This document shows positions 25,684 through 34,967 of a stretch of DNA of 64,000 nucleotides, in pieces. This stretch comes from Acidimicrobiia bacterium (lineage in GTDB: Bacteria; Acidobacteriota; Terriglobia; Bryobacterales; Bryobacteraceae), in the NCBI GenBank assembly GCA_016871315.1, contig VFZE01000005.1:1-64000 (forward strand). The letters are read 5' to 3'. Within the stretch, counting starts at the first letter, position 1. Each line of letters begins with the position of its first letter. The position numbers were made by a program, and so were the translations under genes. Under the pieces are notes generated by a model that had not been told where the DNA came from, ran no database searches, and was given only the letters and a program-made list of their open reading frames with translations.

Positions 25684-25772
25684 CCATGTACGTTGATGGC
25701 TGAGTCAGCGCGGTGCGGTCTGCTTTCGAAATCAGATCGGTCTGCAATCTGCGTGCTACGCTCAGAAATAGG

Positions 25773-27203
25773 ATGCCTTTTTCTGATTCGTTTTTTGCGC
25801 GGAAGTTCAATCTGACAGTGCGCGACCTGGAAAGTTGCCTTGCCGAGGCGCTGTCCCGCGGCGGCGACTACGCCGATCTGTATTTCGAGTACCTGGAGAC
25901 GACCTCGATCTCGCTGGATGAATCGATCGTCAAGACGGCCACGCAAGGGGTGAGCGTCGGCGTCGGCGTTCGGGTGATCAGCGGAGAACGGACCGGGTAC
26001 GCCTACTGCGACAACCTGTCGCCGGAGCGGATACGCGATGCGGCGCGCGTGGCGGCTTGCATTGCCGATGGGCCGTCAACGCTGGTGAAGACCGGGTTTC
26101 AAGAATCCGCGGCGCATGATCTTTACCCCGTGGTATCACCCTCCTCCGACGCGCCGCTGCTCGAGCGGGTCCGCTTGGTGCAGCGCGCCGATGAAGCGGC
26201 GAGGAGTTACGACAAGCGGGTGTTCCAAGTCCAGGCCTCTTATCTGGATTCCCTCAAGCAGGTGATGGTGGCGACAAGCGATGGCACACTGAGCTTTGAC
26301 CGGCAGCCAATGGCGCGCCTGAACGTGGCGGCGCTGGCGCGGGAGGAGGAAGGCACCCCACAGCGCGGGTTTTCCGGAGGCGGAGGCCGCGTCGGGCTGG
26401 ATTTCTTCCAAGCGGATAAGAGTCCGGAGGCGTTTGCGCGCGAAGCCGCGCGGCAGGCGATTGTGCAGCTGGGCGCGGTGGACGCGCCGAGCGGCGAGCA
26501 GACCGTGGTGCTCGGGCCGGGCTGGCCGGGCGTGCTTCTGCATGAAGCGGTGGGCCATGGGTTGGAGGCGGATTTCAACCGCAAGAAGCTCTCGGCATAT
26601 TCGGACCGCATCGGGCAGCAGGTGGCTTCGCCGCTGGTGACGGTGATCGACGACGGTACCATCCAGGACCGCCGCGGGTCCCTGAACGTGGACGATGAAG
26701 GCGCCCCGACGCGGCGCAATGTTCTCATCGAGAAGGGCATTTTGCGCGGCTACTTACAGGACCGGTTGTCGAGCAGGATTCTGGGCGCGGAAGGAACAGG
26801 GAGCGGGCGGCGGGAAAGCTACCAGCACATCCCGATGCCGCGGATGACCAACACGTTCATGCTGGCCGGGGAGGGCGATCCGGAAGAGATCATACGGTCT
26901 GTGGAGAAGGGTGTTTATTGCGTGAACTTCGGCGGCGGGCAGGTGGATATCACGAGCGGGAAGTTCGTCTTTTCGGCAACCGAAAGCTACCTTATCGAAG
27001 GCGGGCGGATCACACGGCCCATCCGCGGAGCGACGCTGATCGGCAACGGTCCGGACGCCATGCGCAAGGTAAGCATGGTGGGCAACGATCTAAAGCTGGA
27101 CGAGGGGATCGGTAGCTGCGGCAAGGACGGGCAAATGGTTCCGGTGGGCGTGGGGATTCCGACCATCCGCATCGACAGGATGACGGTCGGAGGCACGGCC
27201 TGA
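25773..27203 (+). CDS. tldD: TldD family metalloprotease subunit
   Basis: The ATG at 25773 starts a 476-residue protein (the frame opens 20 codons earlier over the sulfatase remnant). The zinc motif is HEAVGHGLEAD (HExxxH), and the C-terminal half has GGGQVDITSGKFVF, both typical of TldD. TldD forms a heterodimer with TldE that threads and cleaves unfolded peptides, including leader peptides of some ribosomal natural products. The next gene is tldE, sharing one base, so the complete complex is present. No obvious RiPP precursor was found alongside. Confidence 0.95.
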   Translation: MPFSDSFFARKFNLTVRDLESCLAEALSRGGDYADLYFEYLETTSISLDESIVKTATQGVSVGVGVRVISGERTGYAYCDNLSPERIRDAARVAACIADGPSTLVKTGFQESAAHDLYPVVSPSSDAPLLERVRLVQRADEAARSYDKRVFQVQASYLDSLKQVMVATSDGTLSFDRQPMARLNVAALAREEEGTPQRGFSGGGGRVGLDFFQADKSPEAFAREAARQAIVQLGAVDAPSGEQTVVLGPGWPGVLLHEAVGHGLEADFNRKKLSAYSDRIGQQVASPLVTVIDDGTIQDRRGSLNVDDEGAPTRRNVLIEKGILRGYLQDRLSSRILGAEGTGSGRRESYQHIPMPRMTNTFMLAGEGDPEEIIRSVEKGVYCVNFGGGQVDITSGKFVFSATESYLIEGGRITRPIRGATLIGNGPDAMRKVSMVGNDLKLDEGIGSCGKDGQMVPVGVGIPTIRIDRMTVGGTA

Positions 27204-28543
27204 TGATTGTTGAGCTGGCGCGGCAGGCGGTGAAGATGGCGATGGTGCAGGGAGCGGCCGCGGCCGAGTGCACGGCCGTCGAGGGCGATGAATTCTCCGT
27301 TACGGTGCGCATGGGCGAGGTGGAGAGCATCAAGGAGTCCGGCGCGCGCGGCACCGGGATTCGCGTGCTGGTGAACAAGAACGCCGGATCTTCCTACACC
27401 TCCGATTTGAGCGAGCAAGGAATTCATGCAATGGTTACGCGCGCGCTGGAGCTGGCGCGCGTGACAACCGCGGATCCCCACGCCGGCATGCCGGAGCCGG
27501 ATGAGCTTGGGAAGCTGAACGGGAGCCTGGATCTGTATCACGCCGACATCGCCACGCTGAAAGCGGAGGAGAAAGTGGACCTGGCGCGGCGCGCGGAGAA
27601 GGCGGCCCTCGATGCCGATCCGCGGATCACCAATTCCGACGGCGGTTCTTTTGGCTCCCATACCAGCCTGCATGCATTCGCCAATTCGCTGGGCTTTGAG
27701 GGAGAGTACCGCACCTCGTCGTGCTCGCTGAGCGCGGTGCCCGTGGCGCGGGAAGGTGAATCGATGGAGCGTGACTATTGGTATACCGCGGCGCGGTCGT
27801 TTGCGCGGCTGGAATCGCCGGAGCAGATCGGGCGCATCGCGGCGGAGCGGGTGCTGCGGCGATTGAATCCCCGCAAAGTGCCGACCTGCAAGGTGCCCGT
27901 AGTGTTTGAGCATCGCGCTGCACGTTCCCTGGTCGGCCACGTGTACGAAGCGGTGCACGGGGAATCGGTCTACCGCAAGGCGTCGTTCCTGGCGGGCAAG
28001 CTGGGCCAGCAAGTTGCCTCCGAAAATGTGACCATCGTCGACGACAGCACGATTCCCGGGCTGTTTGGAACTTCCCCATTCGACGATGAAGGCGTTCCCT
28101 CGCGCCGGACGGTGGTGGTGGAGCGCGGCGTCTTGCGCAGCTACCTTCTGAACACCTACACGGGACGCAAGCTCGGGATGAAGACGACGGGTAACGCCAG
28201 CCGCGGGCTTTCGGGGAACATCGGCATCGGCCACGGCAACCTGTATCTGGAAAATGGCCATGCAACCAACGCCGATCTGTTCGCGGCCGCCGGCTCGGGC
28301 TTGTACGTCACCGAGCTGATCGGTCACGGCTTCAACGCCGTCACCGGTGATTATTCGATTGGCGCGACGGGCTTGTGGATTGAGAATGGAGCGTTGGCCT
28401 ATCCGGTCTCGGAGGTAACCATCGCCGCCAATCTTCGCGATATGCTGATGGGGATTCAACTGGTGGCGGGCGATCTGGAGTTTCGCGGCTCGGTGGCCTC
28501 GCCTTCGATCCTCATACGGGAGATGACGGTCAGTGGTCAATAA
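27203..28543 (+). CDS. tldE: TldE/PmbA family partner of TldD
   Basis: A 446-residue TldE-type protein, the non-catalytic half of the TldD/E heterodimer: it lacks the HExxxH motif and shows VFEHRAARSLVGHVYEAVHG in the equivalent place. Other family blocks are TTGNASRGLSGN and YVTELIGHGFNAVTGDYSIG. The start ATG overlaps the tldD stop by one base, a tight coupling consistent with equal amounts of both subunits. In other bacteria this complex matures microcin B17 and degrades CcdA-like peptides. Confidence 0.95.
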   Translation: MIVELARQAVKMAMVQGAAAAECTAVEGDEFSVTVRMGEVESIKESGARGTGIRVLVNKNAGSSYTSDLSEQGIHAMVTRALELARVTTADPHAGMPEPDELGKLNGSLDLYHADIATLKAEEKVDLARRAEKAALDADPRITNSDGGSFGSHTSLHAFANSLGFEGEYRTSSCSLSAVPVAREGESMERDYWYTAARSFARLESPEQIGRIAAERVLRRLNPRKVPTCKVPVVFEHRAARSLVGHVYEAVHGESVYRKASFLAGKLGQQVASENVTIVDDSTIPGLFGTSPFDDEGVPSRRTVVVERGVLRSYLLNTYTGRKLGMKTTGNASRGLSGNIGIGHGNLYLENGHATNADLFAAAGSGLYVTELIGHGFNAVTGDYSIGATGLWIENGALAYPVSEVTIAANLRDMLMGIQLVAGDLEFRGSVASPSILIREMTVSGQ

Positions 28544-29000
28544 AGCAAAAGAAAAGAGGCCCTTGATTCCCCTGCCGGTGCTGATTCTGGCAGTGCTCGG
28601 GGCAATCGGTGGCGGCGGCTTCTGGCTGTTCTTGAAGTACTTGAATGTCCAGCCCCCGAAGCCGGTTCTCACTGCGGAAGCAAAGGCCTATGTGCGCAAT
28701 CTTCAACTGGCCGATGTCGAGATGAAGGCGGCGGAAAGCTACATTGGCCAGGAGATTGTGGAGATCACGGGCAAGATCACCAATGCGGGCGAGCGGGAAT
28801 TGAAGCAGGTGGATTTGAACTGCATATTCTACGATCCATATGGTCAGGTGGTTCTGCGGCGGCTCGTGTCGATTGTGCGCAGCGATTCCGGCGGACTTTC
28901 TCCGGGCAAAACGGCCGATTTCCGGCTGCCCTTTGACGATTTGCCGCAGAGCTGGAACAAGACGATGCCGCAACTGGTGATCGCGCAGATCATTTTCTGA
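28533..29000 (+). CDS. Membrane-anchored small protein with FxLYD/DUF2393-like domain
   Basis: GTG start at 28533, overlapping the end of tldE by 11 bases. The 155-residue product has one N-terminal membrane helix (LPVLILAVLGAIGGGGFWLF), then a soluble beta domain: VEITGKITNAGERELKQVDL, CIFYDPYGQVVLRRL, SPGKTADFRLPFDDLP. That pattern is the FxLYD/DUF2393 immunoglobulin-like fold found in acidobacterial anchored proteins. The domain faces outward. Its place at the end of the tldDE operon may be functional or just co-transcription; no substrate is known. Confidence 0.7.
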   Translation: MVNKAKEKRPLIPLPVLILAVLGAIGGGGFWLFLKYLNVQPPKPVLTAEAKAYVRNLQLADVEMKAAESYIGQEIVEITGKITNAGERELKQVDLNCIFYDPYGQVVLRRLVSIVRSDSGGLSPGKTADFRLPFDDLPQSWNKTMPQLVIAQIIF

Positions 29001-29008
29001 GGCCTGAG

Positions 29009-30568
29009 GTGGCGAACATCCTGCTCGTAGATGACGATGACGATCAGCTGGAGCTGCGCAGCCTGATTCTCAAAGAGGCGGGCCACAAGGTCCGCACGGC
29101 GACCTCGCCGGAGGATGCGCGCCGGAGTTTCGACACCGAAGCTCCCGATACGGTAGTGATGGATCTGCGTCTGCCTGCTGCCGAAGATGGTTTGTCGCTG
29201 ATTCGGCACATGCGGGGCGGCGCAGGGAATCCGAGGATCTATGTGGTCTCCGGATGGCCGGCCGATCTGAACAACCGGCCCGAGTCGGCGATGGTGGACC
29301 GCGTCCTGGAAAAGCCCGTGAAATCAGAAGTGCTCCTAGGACTGCTGAAGCTTGTGCTTTGCTGCGTACTGGCGCCGCCGCTGCTGGCGGCAACGCATGG
29401 GTTCAGCCTGGAGCATCCGGCGGAAGTGGTTGCCGAGATTCAGTTCCGCGAATCTGGTCTGGCGGCCCTTCTGGTGGACGCCAAGCCGGCGGGACATGTG
29501 CAGGTCCTCGATGTCCGGCAGCGCTACGGGGTGATGCTGGGGGAACTCTCCGCCGGCGCGCATGAGTTACGGACTCCGGGTGAGGCCGCGGTTACGATCC
29601 GCAGTTTTGCGAAGGATGATCCGCACTACGAGGTCATCGCCAACGCCCCGTACCTCTACGCACGGCCCAATACCGTGGGCACGCTGTCGGACGTGCCGCT
29701 ATTGGTCTATTGCGAACGGCTTGGCGAGCAATTGCAGTACACCGCTATTTTTTCCAACGAGGATGGCGGGACATCCACCCGCGCGCTGATGGCGCGCTGG
29801 GGGCGGACCACCGATATCGAGCACGTCTATCGCTACTGGCCAGCCAGCGGCCGGGCGGAGATTCAAACCAAGGGACACGCCGATGTGTTGTTCCAAGGGC
29901 GGCGCGAGGGTAGACATCCACTGCTTTATGTTTCGACCGACAACAATATGGTGGCCGGCCAGGGCGAGTCTCCGGTGCGCTACCAACTGGCTCCGATCCT
30001 GGTGGATCTAAGCGGATCGTCGAGGGAGAAAGTGATGGACGATCATCCTTTCACCTACCGGTTGGCTGCCGAGGAACTCGCGCGGGAAGGCAAGCTGCGG
30101 CCGTTCCGCACGGTGGACGGCCAAAAGATATCCGATCCGCGGAATTATCTGTATCTGGAGGCGCACGTGGGGAGCAGCGGCGCCCGCATCGCCGCTCGGG
30201 TCAGACTCCAGCGCGAAGGCCGCTGGCGGACCTCGCACCTGGGCCGCGTCGACTACGCGATCGAACGCGGCGGATGGGTGCGGACCACGGTGGAGCTGCC
30301 GCCCGGAACCCGGCCCACCGAGATCGCCGAAATCGGATTCGACTGTCTGGTGGAGCCGGCCGGCCGCGACAAGCCTGCCCCCATCGCCGGCGCCTGCGTG
30401 GTGAAAGAGGTGAGCCGGCTATTTATGCTGGAAGCGGACCATGTCCCGGGCGGAAACTTCTGGCGGCTCGCCGCCAGTGGCAACGGCTGGGCAATCCCCA
30501 CCGGGGAAACTCTTACCTGGTCTCTCGCGCCAGGAGCTTCTTCTTCGCCGCCGCAAAATCCTCGCTAA
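29009..30568 (+). CDS. Response-regulator receiver fused to an exported-type domain
   Basis: Residues 1-115 are a complete receiver domain: DDDDD at 8-12, phosphoacceptor D52 (TVVMDLRLP), the Ser in VVSGWP and Lys in LEKPV. The frame then continues with no stop through LLGLLKLVLCCVLAPPLLAA, which reads as the last receiver helix and at once as a signal peptide, into about 390 residues of beta-rich sequence (GFSLEHPAEVV, PYLYARPNTVGTL). I do not recognise this second part; it looks like an exported protein. Either it is a single protein with a cytoplasmic receiver, or a second gene starts internally at a GTG near 29330-29354. The gene begins with GTG 8 bases after the preceding gene. Confidence 0.7.
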   Translation: MANILLVDDDDDQLELRSLILKEAGHKVRTATSPEDARRSFDTEAPDTVVMDLRLPAAEDGLSLIRHMRGGAGNPRIYVVSGWPADLNNRPESAMVDRVLEKPVKSEVLLGLLKLVLCCVLAPPLLAATHGFSLEHPAEVVAEIQFRESGLAALLVDAKPAGHVQVLDVRQRYGVMLGELSAGAHELRTPGEAAVTIRSFAKDDPHYEVIANAPYLYARPNTVGTLSDVPLLVYCERLGEQLQYTAIFSNEDGGTSTRALMARWGRTTDIEHVYRYWPASGRAEIQTKGHADVLFQGRREGRHPLLYVSTDNNMVAGQGESPVRYQLAPILVDLSGSSREKVMDDHPFTYRLAAEELAREGKLRPFRTVDGQKISDPRNYLYLEAHVGSSGARIAARVRLQREGRWRTSHLGRVDYAIERGGWVRTTVELPPGTRPTEIAEIGFDCLVEPAGRDKPAPIAGACVVKEVSRLFMLEADHVPGGNFWRLAASGNGWAIPTGETLTWSLAPGASSSPPQNPR

Positions 30569-31103
30569 GCTGGCGGGTGATTTTATCGGCGACGTCGGCG
30601 CTGGCTCCTTTGAACTTGGCGCCAAGACTCTCCTTGGTTGTGGACCAAAGCACGTCGCCGTCCTTGTTGACGAGCCGCACGGAAGCTACGGCTTCATGTT
30701 TGCGCTCGGCGATCCGCATCGATTCATTCTCTCCGACGCCGACGCTGCCGAAACCGGTCCGGCGGCCGTTGCCGGAGCGGCTGTTTACCGAGCCGGTGCC
30801 AAAACTGGCCGCCGCGCGCGCGTTGACACCCTCACTAGACTGGAAGGTATCGGTAAAGACAAGATCCTCGGCCGACCCCTTCAAGAACGCGTCGGCGCGG
30901 TCGGGATTCTCCGTAATCACGAACAGTCCCGTACGCTGCAGGCTCGCGATGACCATGTCGCGAATGTGGTTGGCTGTTTCCCCGCCTGCCATGCGATCGA
31001 CGTGGATCCGGCGCACCGCCACAAGGTGCCTCTCCAGATCCTCGTTGATTTCGATCGCCGGCTGCGCCATGGCCAAACAGCAGGCCAGCGCCGCCCGCCT
31101 CAC
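30513..31103 (-). CDS. Small secreted protein of unknown function
   Basis: A 196-residue protein with a short hydrophobic start (MRRAALACCLAMAQP), then RDMVIASLQRTGLFVITENP, DAFLKGSAEDLVFTDTFQ, a Gly/Ser-rich centre and VRLVNKDGDVLWSTTKES. The last block is like the CsgG/TolB-type group in which secreted lipoproteins report a damaged or added nucleotide-binding-like motif, but I cannot name a family. Its last 56 bases overlap the 3' end of the receiver fusion on the other strand. It shares a 4-base overlap with its upstream neighbour, so they form an operon. Confidence 0.65.
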   Translation of the reverse strand: MRRAALACCLAMAQPAIEINEDLERHLVAVRRIHVDRMAGGETANHIRDMVIASLQRTGLFVITENPDRADAFLKGSAEDLVFTDTFQSSEGVNARAAASFGTGSVNSRSGNGRRTGFGSVGVGENESMRIAERKHEAVASVRLVNKDGDVLWSTTKESLGAKFKGASADVADKITRQLSEDFAAAKKKLLARETR

Positions 31104-31555: not shown

Positions 31556-31796
31556 AAGCAGTGATTCTCCAACCCATAGTTGAGGCGCTTTGGAGGAATT
31601 CTCAAGCTCGATCTTTTGGCTTTTCAACGCGCGCGATGGTAGATTTCCTATCGCGAATCCGGCGATGAGAATCAGTGCAGAGGAATCTGAGAAGGGATAT
31701 ATCCAGGCCGGTATCGGAGGCCGTGGAATGGACGGCGAAGACGGCTCCGGCCGGGCCCCAAGTCATGCTCGAGCAGCAACGTGTAAACTCATCGGA

Positions 31797-32396
31797 ATGA
31801 TCTCGAAGCTGATTCGGCGTACGCACATGTACCTGGCGCTATTCTTGAGCCCGTGGATCGTCATGTACGCACTGTCGACGATGGCAATGAACCACCGCAA
31901 GGGGCTGGAGGAGATTTTCGGCAATGGACCGCCGAAGTTTGAACGGCTGAAGGTAGTGGACGTGCCCGCGGGCGTTGTGAAGGCGGATTCCCCGCGGCCC
32001 GAGAATGCGAAGAGGCTACTTGATGCGCTCAAAATGGACGGCATGCACAACGTGCCCAAGGCGCGCGCCGATGGAACGCTGGTTGTCGTGCGGCATCCGG
32101 CCTCGGCTCCGGTCCGCATCACCTACCGGCCCGACACGGGCAAGGCGCTGATCGAAAAACAACAGGGCCGGTTCAGCTTTCTGCTGGAGCGGATGCACCG
32201 GCGGCGCGGGTATCAGCATCCCTACGGTGTCGACAAGGCGTGGGCATTCTCCGTTGACCTGGTAATCGTGGTGATCGTGTTCTGGGTGCTGAGCGGCTTG
32301 TGGATGTGGTGGGAACTGAAATCGGCGCGCCGGCTGGGGGCCTTGTCGATGGCGGGCGGTTTGGCGCTGTTCGCGTTTCTGGTGGCGGTGCTATGA
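31797..32396 (+). CDS. PepSY-type membrane protein, first of a pair
   Basis: The ATG at 31797 gives 199 residues: MISKLIRRTHMYLALFLSPW, a first helix with His, a periplasmic domain of about 110 residues (PYGVDKAWAFSV follows it) and two helices near the end (VVIVFWVLSGLWMWWELK). The arrangement, helix-PepSY-like domain-WMWW helix, resembles PepSY-associated membrane proteins involved in iron or flavin-linked reduction at the membrane. The frame upstream of 31797 has no supporting features. It overlaps the next gene by 4 bases. Confidence 0.75.
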   Translation: MISKLIRRTHMYLALFLSPWIVMYALSTMAMNHRKGLEEIFGNGPPKFERLKVVDVPAGVVKADSPRPENAKRLLDALKMDGMHNVPKARADGTLVVVRHPASAPVRITYRPDTGKALIEKQQGRFSFLLERMHRRRGYQHPYGVDKAWAFSVDLVIVVIVFWVLSGLWMWWELKSARRLGALSMAGGLALFAFLVAVL

Positions 32397-32992
32397 CATT
32401 CAACCATTTCAACCGGCGGCTTCATCTTTACCTCGGTCTCGCGCTGCTGCCCTGGTTTTTCATGTACGGCATCAGCAGCTACGTCTTCAATCATCCGCAG
32501 ACGTTTGAGCAGCGCTTCAAGGCGAGCGGAGTTCCGCTTTGGAAGAAGCGGTTCGAGCGTCACTATGACGTGCCCGTACCGGCGGATGGGGATCTGAAGG
32601 AACTCGGCGCGCGAATCATGCGTGACGCGGGACTCAATGGCAGCTTCGGAACGTATCGCCAGAACGAGAACCAGATTACCGTCTACGCGCACACGTTCTG
32701 GTGGTCGACACAGGCGAAGTATTTTGTGAATGAAAAACGCCTGCTCGCCGAAGACCGCGCCTTCCGCTGGGATCATTTCCTCACCGGCATGCATGCACGC
32801 GGCGGCTTCGATCAGGACAGCTTTCTCTCCGATGCCTGGGCAGTAGTCATCGATATCGTCTGCCTGGGCATGCTTTTGTGGGTGGCCTCCGGAATTTACA
32901 TGTGGTGGAAAATCTCCATCGTCCGCGGATGGGGCTGGGTTGCGCTGCTCGGCGGAGTGGCCAGTTTCCTGTTCTTCTTGTGGAAGATGTAG
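32393..32992 (+). CDS. PepSY-type membrane protein, second of a pair
   Basis: The start overlaps the preceding stop (ATGA). The 199-residue product repeats the layout of its neighbour: LHLYLGLALLPWFFMYGISS, periplasmic domain, MHARGGFDQ, then VVIDIVCLGMLLWVASGIYM with WWK. The His in the first helix and His in MHARG may carry haem, as proposed for the family. Together the two genes encode halves resembling one PepSY_TM protein, so they probably act as a heterodimer. No siderophore receptor lies nearby. Confidence 0.75.
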   Translation: MTFNHFNRRLHLYLGLALLPWFFMYGISSYVFNHPQTFEQRFKASGVPLWKKRFERHYDVPVPADGDLKELGARIMRDAGLNGSFGTYRQNENQITVYAHTFWWSTQAKYFVNEKRLLAEDRAFRWDHFLTGMHARGGFDQDSFLSDAWAVVIDIVCLGMLLWVASGIYMWWKISIVRGWGWVALLGGVASFLFFLWKM

Positions 32993-33085
32993 CCTTCGCA
33001 ACACTGGCCTCGGCGTCGGGTTCAACTCAAGTGATGTGATGGAACCTGCCGGATGACAGGCGCGTCTGTCGCATTGTTGAACATT

Positions 33086-34033
33086 ATGCGCAAACTACTC
33101 TTGTTTTCTTTCATCGCCGGTATTCCTCTTGCCGCTGCTTCTCCCGATTATTTTCCGCTTCATGTAGGCAACCAATGGGTCTACAGGCAGGGCGGCGCTT
33201 TTCCTGGCGAGCCGGTTGTGGTGGACATTCCGCGAAGTGAAGTATTTGAGGGCAGGTCCTATTCGCTGGTGCGCGGCTTCGGAGAAAGCAACGCATGGCT
33301 GAGGATGGACGAAAACGGCACACTCCACGCTTATGATCCGGACCGGCGTCAGGAGCTGGTCTGGGCCGCATTCGCCACGCCCGCCGGCGGAACCTATCGA
33401 ACGGCCATCAACCAGTGCAACAATATGGCCACCGTGGAATCCCGCGACGCCAAGGCCAGCGTGCCGGCGGGTGAATTCGGGAACGCGCTCGAGATCCGCT
33501 ACCCTGCGGCCAATTGCGCCGACGCCGGGTTGACATCGGAAAAGTATCTGCCGTGGATCGGTCTGGTGGAGCGGACTTCGCTGACTATCGCCGGGCCTCG
33601 AACTTGGAAGCTATCCTATGCACGCGTCGGAGGCGTGACCGTGCTGAGCGAGCCGGAGCATTCCTTTTCCTTGACGCTGGATCGCGCCGAGTACAGCGAT
33701 CCATCGCCTGTGCTGACCGGGCGCATGACACTCCGCTCGACGCAGCCGGATACGCCGCGGGAGCTGATGTTCCCGAGCGGACAGCGGTTTGACCTGGAGA
33801 TTCGCAACGAGGCGGGCGATCTAGTGTTCCTCTGGTCGGAGGGCAAGTTTTTCACCCTGGCATTAGGGAGCGAACGGATCACCGGAGAGAAGAACTGGGT
33901 CGCGGAGGTTCCGCTGGTTCGTGACCGGGTGCGGCTCCCTGCGGGCAACTACTCCGCCGAGGGTTGGCTCACGACAATGGAAGGGAAACGATATGCGGCT
34001 CGCGTGGGTTTTGCCGTTCGTCCTGTGCGCTAA
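33086..34033 (+). CDS. Secreted protein with C-terminal BsuPI-like domain, copy 1
   Basis: ATG 33086 follows TTGTTGAAC and starts a signal peptide, MRKLLLFSFIAGIPLAAA. The N-terminal 200 residues (DYFPLHVGNQWVYRQGG) form a beta-rich domain frequently found in acidobacterial exported proteins. The last 100 residues (LTGRMTLRSTQPD, LMFPSGQRFDLEIRNEAGDL, VFLWSEGKFF) match the BsuPI intracellular proteinase-inhibitor fold. The next gene is a close paralogue, and shared DNA (GTAGGCAACCAATGGGTCTAC at both N-termini is shared over 20 bases) shows tandem duplication. It might inhibit extracellular proteases, but this is only inferred. Confidence 0.75.
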   Translation: MRKLLLFSFIAGIPLAAASPDYFPLHVGNQWVYRQGGAFPGEPVVVDIPRSEVFEGRSYSLVRGFGESNAWLRMDENGTLHAYDPDRRQELVWAAFATPAGGTYRTAINQCNNMATVESRDAKASVPAGEFGNALEIRYPAANCADAGLTSEKYLPWIGLVERTSLTIAGPRTWKLSYARVGGVTVLSEPEHSFSLTLDRAEYSDPSPVLTGRMTLRSTQPDTPRELMFPSGQRFDLEIRNEAGDLVFLWSEGKFFTLALGSERITGEKNWVAEVPLVRDRVRLPAGNYSAEGWLTTMEGKRYAARVGFAVRPVR

Positions 34034-34967
34034 CGCGGCGGCACAGCAGCCGGATTACTTCCCGCTGCACGTAGGCAACCAATGGGTCTACCGCGTCGGC
34101 GGAACGCGGCCGGCCGAACCGCTGGTGCTTTCGATCACTCGCGGGGAACTATTCGACGGCCGTCATTATGTATTGCTCGAGGGCTGGACTCGCGGCAATT
34201 TCTGGCTGCGGCAGGATGAGAAAGGGGATCTTTACCGCTTCAACACGGAGACCCGTCAGGATGAGCTGTGGTACTCCTTCTTCGCCGAGCCTGGCCGAGT
34301 CTATCGCAACCAGCTGCCCTGGTGCTGCGGCCAGGGACGCGTTGCCTCGCGAGACGCAGAGTTCCGCGGCCCCATTGGCTCAGGCCGCGGCGCGCTGGAG
34401 GTGGGCGATCCCACTGTGTTCCAGATCGGCTTGGTCAAGGAACTGTTTCTTCCCTACGTTGGGCTGGTGAGCCGGTTCGAAAATGTGGGTGGACCGGCGG
34501 TGGCCACCTATGACCTGATCTACGCGCGGACCGGTGGCGTGACGGTGGTGGAGGAGCCGCAGGTAAGCTTCCGCCTCACCCTGGACGGATCGCTCTACTA
34601 CTCCGATCAAATGCCGCCACTCGACCCACGGCGCGCCGTGCCTCAGCTGACCGCACGGATCACATTACGCAACACGCAGCCGCAACCGCTGCGGCTCACC
34701 TTCCCCAGCGGCCAGCTCTTCGAGCTGGTGATCCGGAACGATAAAGGAGAGACCGTGCATACCTGGTCCGCCAACAAGCTGTTTCCACAGGTCGTACAGA
34801 GCCTTGAATTCGGCCACGGCGAGCATAGCTACATCGCGGTTGCTCGGTTGGGCGCCGGCGACCGGCCTCTCCCTGAGGGCCGCTACACCGCCGAAGCGTG
34901 GCTAACTACTCAAGGTCGAATTGTTTATTCCGCCACAGCCGGCTTTGAGATCATGCACGTTTTCTAA
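33993..34967 (+). CDS. Secreted protein with C-terminal BsuPI-like domain, copy 2
   Basis: The ATG at 33993, inside the end of copy 1, begins MRLAWVLPFVLCANAAAQ, a signal peptide; the frame before that is the shadow of copy 1. The 324-residue product has the same order: QPDYFPLHVGNQWVYRVGG, a beta domain with a CC pair (LPWCCGQG), then LTARITLRNTQPQ, LTFPSGQLFELVIRND and VHTWSANKLF. A 41-base overlap with copy 1 suggests translational coupling. Divergence in the middle third while both ends are conserved suggests different partners. Confidence 0.75.
   Translation: MRLAWVLPFVLCANAAAQQPDYFPLHVGNQWVYRVGGTRPAEPLVLSITRGELFDGRHYVLLEGWTRGNFWLRQDEKGDLYRFNTETRQDELWYSFFAEPGRVYRNQLPWCCGQGRVASRDAEFRGPIGSGRGALEVGDPTVFQIGLVKELFLPYVGLVSRFENVGGPAVATYDLIYARTGGVTVVEEPQVSFRLTLDGSLYYSDQMPPLDPRRAVPQLTARITLRNTQPQPLRLTFPSGQLFELVIRNDKGETVHTWSANKLFPQVVQSLEFGHGEHSYIAVARLGAGDRPLPEGRYTAEAWLTTQGRIVYSATAGFEIMHVF

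Follow-up and report, generated by a model that had tools for sequence, protein, structure and literature searches.

A receiver domain fused in frame to a signal-peptide-like stretch and an exported-style protein is kept across genera in one family of Acidobacteriota

The fused gene and its operon

The window (the whole stretch of DNA analysed, 64,000 nucleotides) carries a gene in which a complete receiver domain continues, in one open frame, into a signal-peptide-like hydrophobic stretch and then into an exported-style part, here called X, a working name for the unnamed C-terminal part of about 390 residues. It is a real, unusual gene and not a sequencing error. The sequences themselves show that the frame is single and conserved, that the phosphorylation site is intact, that the receiver's last helix is charged and that the hydrophobic stretch matches X's own start in position. 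With modest confidence, we lean towards a single N-in/C-out precursor in which the receiver helix would double as the n-region of a signal peptide, X being exported and probably cut free. The gene, its parts and the genes that precede it are as follows.

25713..27203, + strand: tldD, same operon as the fused gene (NF008006, 575.7 bits against a cut-off of 513)
27203..28543, + strand: tldE/pmbA-type gene, same operon as the fused gene (PF19289, PF19290, PF01523)
28533..29000, + strand: DUF3426/FxLYD-type gene, directly upstream (NF038353 above cut-off; PF11906 E 5.2e-6, just under cut-off)
29009..30568, + strand: fused gene (receiver, hydrophobic stretch and X), a single ORF of 519 aa with a GTG start and 0 internal stops
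29009..29341, + strand: receiver domain, residues 1-111 (PF00072 match at residues 4-111)
29162..29164, + strand: Asp52, expected phosphorylation site (D in 69/69 fusions)
29312..29314, + strand: Lys102 of the KP motif, Lys102-Pro103 (K in 69/69 fusions)
29318..29350, + strand: presumed last receiver helix, residues 104-114, VKSEVLLGLLK, with a proposed double role as signal-peptide n-region
29351..29392, + strand: hydrophobic core and c-region of the proposed signal peptide, residues 115-128, LVLCCVLAPPLLAA
29393..30568, + strand: X, the exported-style part, residues 129-519 and the stop codon
30344..30397, + strand: Cys446 to Cys463, conserved cysteine pair of X

The fused protein matches PF00072 with an E-value of 5.3e-15 and 56 bits (cut-off 30.2) over profile positions 1-108 of 111, and the Pfam scan gave no other family above cut-off; a DNA-binding domain was likewise not found by Pfam, only Response_reg passing the cut-off. 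From knowledge of the receiver family, we take Asp52 to be the phosphorylation site and residues 104-114 to be the last helix of the receiver. Between this helix and LVLCCVLAPPLLAA there is no stop codon, and 391 residues of X follow downstream. The GTG start lies 8 nt past the stop of the upstream gene and aligns with the starts of the other fusions, whose receivers, with that of the window, begin with ATG in 65 cases and GTG in 4. X itself matches no Pfam family at cut-off and has no relative in the PDB by sequence; sequence searches of Pfam, NCBIfam and the PDB gave no name for its function. An AlphaFold2 model built from two sequences was too poor to use or to show the last helix (mean pLDDT 49.5). 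The C-terminus of X in the window extends about 12 residues beyond that of the relative L009, and a convergent ORF (30513-31103, - strand) overlaps the 3' end of the fused gene, up to 30568, by 56 bases.

From 5' to 3', the gene order is tldD, tldE, the DUF3426/FxLYD-type gene and the fused gene, the actual start of tldD possibly lying further in. This setting is conserved: the DUF3426/FxLYD-type gene stands immediately before the receiver in 68 of the 69 fusions, with a spacing of -1 to 32 bases. The exception is G241, in which the fused gene lies away from the tldDE operon; its DUF3426-type gene is on another contig and was absent from the 1122 bases examined upstream of the fusion. At four loci with X alone (L028, L041, L042, L052), X is likewise not beside the DUF3426-type gene within the stretch examined, that gene being on another contig. 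No kinase was found among the five proteins scanned with Pfam and the four scanned with NCBIfam.

Fused, split and separate forms of the receiver and X

By tblastn, the relative L009 aligned over query residues 1-506, with 55% identity in the best segment. It is the same record as G001, the one genome from the same genus; L012, again the same record, was counted once. Of 61 near relatives, 14 carry X, as do 87 of the 237 genomes of the window's family (Acidobacteriota); at the level of the order the count is 87/257, all 87 within that family. Among 396 genomes sampled across the phylum, 12 carry X, 11 of these outside the window's family. Together with G057, from another family, the 87 give the 88 X loci that were classified, leaving aside the second fragment of G004 (L025) and a 43-residue second match in G129.

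The receiver and X share one open frame at 69 of the 88 loci, which span 20 genera by hand count, and the 68 fusions besides that of the window are 38-56% identical to its protein. In agreement with this, the original prediction of one continuous protein, with a cytoplasmic-type receiver followed by a signal-peptide-like stretch and an exported-style part, is borne out by an intact frame at these 69 loci. The same prediction had advised looking for relatives in which the parts are separate, and such relatives exist: at two loci (G206 and G151) the receiver and X are separate adjoining genes, and at 17 X occurs without the receiver. In genus g53 (G104-G110, L094-L100) we observed a short form of the fusion, consisting of the receiver, the core and the C-terminal domain of X, with the N-terminal part of X missing. 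No fusion was seen outside this one family of soil bacteria; at the 11 further loci beyond it, X stands alone within the up to about 1500 bases examined on each side.

The receiver also occurs without X. We surveyed 20 stretches downstream of the DUF3426-type gene, from 17 genomes lacking X and three with X elsewhere (for G035, 578 bases only). In six of the 17 X-less genomes examined, a free receiver with its own stop occupies the same operon slot, following the DUF3426-type gene (L120, L122, L126, L128, L130, L136), and the receiver's place in the operon is therefore independent of X. Thus, both parts also exist alone.

The fusion is a real and long-lived gene

Many of the genomes are draft assemblies, and at one locus (G146, L067) the junction contains a long C run, an apparent assembly fault, so we considered whether the fusion as a whole could stem from faulty sequencing or assembly, or from a stop codon lost recently. 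We give this practically no chance, and the reading was discarded on the number of conserved fusions, the frame being common to 69 of 88 loci while the other 68 proteins are only 38-56% identical to that of the window. The possibility raised beforehand, that all relatives would have a stop codon between the two parts, did not materialise: of the 71 loci with adjoining parts, 69 have no stop between them. Moreover, pooled over 14 close species pairs, dN/dS is 0.26 at the junction, 0.16 in the receiver and 0.11 in X; the junction is under purifying selection, as expected if it is translated and constrained.

The history of the link was followed on a tree of X, which left out G146 (poly-C junction) as well as G004 and G186, both cut by contig ends. 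On this tree the fused-or-split versus receiver-less state requires 5 changes, and the AU test does not reject a single clade uniting fused and split rows (p 0.057). The split G151 groups with the fused G148 with a support of 99 and has about 260 extra bases between the receiver and X, so that G151 is probably a recent fission; after the split the receiver is whole and the start of X is still signal-peptide-like. The link between receiver and X is not indispensable, since two genomes have it split and 17 loci hold X without the receiver. It is, altogether, long-lived yet dispensable.

A charged receiver helix runs into a short hydrophobic core

The receivers of the fusions have kept the active-site residues: the acidic residue 8, D9, D52 and K102 are each present in 69 of 69 and S/T81 in 68 of 69. 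What sets them apart lies at the join. Over positions KP+3 to KP+13, relative to the KP motif, the 69 fusions have a mean net charge of +1.84 (67 positive, two zero and none negative), while other receivers of the same genome, used as controls, have a mean of -0.29 with 11 of 28 negative (one of the 28 anchored on a KP earlier than usual was retained) and the free receivers, of which there are only eight, a mean of -0.12. Directly after it, a hydrophobic core (an 11-residue window with a mean KD >= 1.7) is present in 68 of 69 fusions and missing from all 15 control receivers of scorable length. The single fusion that lacks it is G146, in which the C run stands in the place of the core and is probably an assembly fault. 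By the Mann-Whitney test, which ignores relatedness, fusions and controls differ in charge with p ~1e-10 and in hydrophobicity with p ~2e-9.

The core resembles a signal peptide more than a membrane anchor in its length. Counted from KP+14, the stretch without any D, E, K, R, N, Q or H spans a median of 14 residues (range 2-20), short for a membrane-spanning helix, and the corresponding stretch measures 9-19 residues in the starts of non-fused X (11 of 19 scorable). In position, the core aligns with the signal-peptide-like N-termini of stand-alone X proteins; outside the family, X begins with such a start in 10 of 11 cases by eye, L115 being doubtful. The fusions thus display a positive n-region and a hydrophobic core of about 7-15 residues, both traits of Sec signal peptides, but the core starts about 115 residues into the protein and not at its N-terminus, as it would for a Sec signal peptide. 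In the simplest reading of these alignments, the last helix of the receiver has replaced the n-region of X's signal peptide, and its charges would set the N-in/C-out orientation.

A proposed single exported precursor and the readings that compete with it

On the reading that we favour, one polypeptide would be made, comprising the receiver, an internal signal peptide and X. The receiver would fold in the cytoplasm, its positively charged last helix continuing into the short hydrophobic core and presumably being shared with the signal peptide, and Sec/SRP may then read the core as an internal N-in/C-out signal. X would cross to the periplasm, where its two conserved cysteines can be joined by a disulfide; cleavage by signal peptidase I after the core would probably free X, while the receiver would stay on the membrane through the signal-peptide stub, available for phosphorylation by a kinase presumably encoded elsewhere. 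Of the 86 aligned X proteins, a set without G004 and G186 (truncated at contig ends), 85 have the cysteine at 446 and 85 that at 463, and such a pair suits an exported, oxidising location. Past the core, 50 of 68 fusions (G146, with its poly-C junction, left out of the motif counts) and 15 of 19 non-fused X proteins have a strict [AVSTI]xA site, which are similar rates; the window's own protein is among the 18 fusions without it. The plain AxA motif shows no excess over shuffled sequence (41/68; shuffles 35.1, sd 3.6), and AxA enrichment was dropped as proof of cleavage, as it was not significant against the shuffles. Since AxA is not above the shuffles and the window lacks the strict site, the case for cleavage draws wholly on the likeness of the core to signal peptides; on this likeness, we consider signal-peptidase cleavage of the fused protein likely.

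Were the stretch left uncleaved, the product would stay in the membrane as a bitopic protein, its receiver in the cytoplasm and X on the far side; phosphorylation in the cytoplasm could then alter X across the membrane, or X could be the sensor and act upon the receiver. The N-in charge pattern is equally compatible with a signal anchor and with a signal peptide, AxA is not in excess over shuffles, the strict site is missing in 18 of 68 fusions including that of the window, and the covalent fusion has been kept across 20 genera (hand count). The shortness of the uncharged run (median 14, range 2-20), which resembles the starts of non-fused X (9-19, 11/19 scored), and the ordinary signal-peptide-like N-termini with which homologous X proteins elsewhere begin argue the other way, and we hold a lasting tether to be rather unlikely. 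The single-helix link to an outside domain that had been predicted is upheld in part: a hydrophobic stretch does lie there, but it looks like a short signal peptide (median 14), from which X may well be freed. It is also conceivable, if doubtful, that the fusion is a by-product of operon packing, in which the parts act separately and the join is cheap since signal peptidase separates them, a reading compatible with the exported precursor. The free receivers in the same slot of 6 of 17 X-less genomes, the 17 of 88 loci with X and no receiver, the two of 88 where they are neighbours, and G151, split by about 260 extra bases although its close relative G148 is fused, all speak for packing. Against it, the frame is intact at 69 of the 71 loci where receiver and X adjoin, the fused gene of G241 lies away from the tldDE operon, and the fusion helix is more positive than in the eight free receivers. 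A further proposal, which we regard as improbable, is receiver-gated export: phosphorylation of Asp52 might alter a surface that includes the last helix and so expose or hide the signal peptide. A histidine kinase would then switch the export of X on or off post-translationally, and every molecule would carry its own gate, lost on cleavage.

The fused gene might instead hold two nested genes in one frame, an extra start late in the receiver yielding X with a normal signal peptide and the full-length product being minor or separate. Counting ATG, GTG and TTG as start codons, with rarer ones outside the count, some candidate is present from KP-20 to KP+13 in 64 of 69 fused genes, among them ATG at KP-7 in 25 fusions and GTG at KP-6 in 29. 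At residue 104, GTG makes up 35 of 49 Val codons as against 49% elsewhere in receivers (Fisher p 0.003, relatedness ignored), a share that one other of 29 Val-rich columns, in X, equals and none exceeds; the window's gene has GTG codons at residues 104 and 108. A Shine-Dalgarno-like stretch precedes a candidate at KP-3 to KP+13 in 13 of 69 genes, compared with 4 of 69 before the receiver's own start; given that low figure at the receiver's own start, the absence of such a stretch at internal candidates is uninformative. On the other hand, five of the 69 genes lack any of these three codons between KP-20 and KP+13; between KP-3 and KP+13 the number without one rises to 11, and only 12 have an ATG there. 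Nor is synonymous change lower across the junction (pS 0.344) than in the receiver (0.320) or in X (0.340), as measured over the 14 species pairs. An internal start for X would be expected to be conserved and is not, so there is little support for internal initiation as a general route; the original prediction, which had offered it as the way the exported part could be made alone, does not carry over to the 5 to 11 of 69 genes without a usual start codon. We judge nested genes quite improbable and retain them as a lesser alternative on account of the excess of GTG at residue 104, itself a weak hint; an internal start of X is possible in some species, the window's included.

Comparison with known systems

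The usual targets of receivers are DNA, enzymes or other proteins inside the cell. Single-domain response regulators of the CheY/DivK type (PF00072) likewise consist of a complete receiver with all phosphorylation residues; in the fusion, by contrast, the last helix is followed directly by a signal-peptide-like core, with an exported-style protein beyond it. ToxR and CadC are type II (N-in/C-out) bitopic proteins with a cytoplasmic N-terminal domain, one hydrophobic segment and a periplasmic domain. The topology expected for the fusion is the same, but it has a receiver instead of a DNA-binding domain, and a short core. Some autotransporters possess Sec signal peptides with long N-terminal extensions, in which the signal peptide is likewise not at the start of the protein, whereas the extension in the fusion is a whole domain of about 110 residues whose last helix is the proposed n-region. 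Transmembrane transcription regulators also combine a cytoplasmic signalling domain with one or more membrane-spanning segments in one protein, and one study reports response-regulator domains in 9.2% of them; these hybrids with receivers, defined by their DNA-binding domains, are reportedly not conserved at the genus, class or phylum level (PMC10269533). The fusion differs from them in the lack of a DNA-binding domain recognised by Pfam, in its signal-peptide-like stretch and in being kept in 20 genera of one family. We found no description of a receiver, signal peptide and exported protein in this architecture in the open-access literature; it may be in print elsewhere.

The fusion ties a receiver with an invariant phosphorylation site to the likely export signal of another protein, and does so in 20 genera. 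This could mean a receiver tethered to the membrane via another protein's signal peptide, a two-component signal acting on export, or harmless packing. The fused, split, receiver-less and X-less versions within one family form a ready comparison set for these alternatives.

Downstream genes

Downstream of the fused gene, two consecutive ORFs (31590-32396 and 32300-32992, both + strand) appear by eye to be copies of one type of membrane protein and resemble each other in MH-R-G and SGxxMWW stretches. They are followed by two further ORFs on the + strand (33053-34033 and 33921-34967), judged by eye to be tandem related proteins of secreted type, the first of which has a BsuPI match (PF12690, E 9.1e-14).
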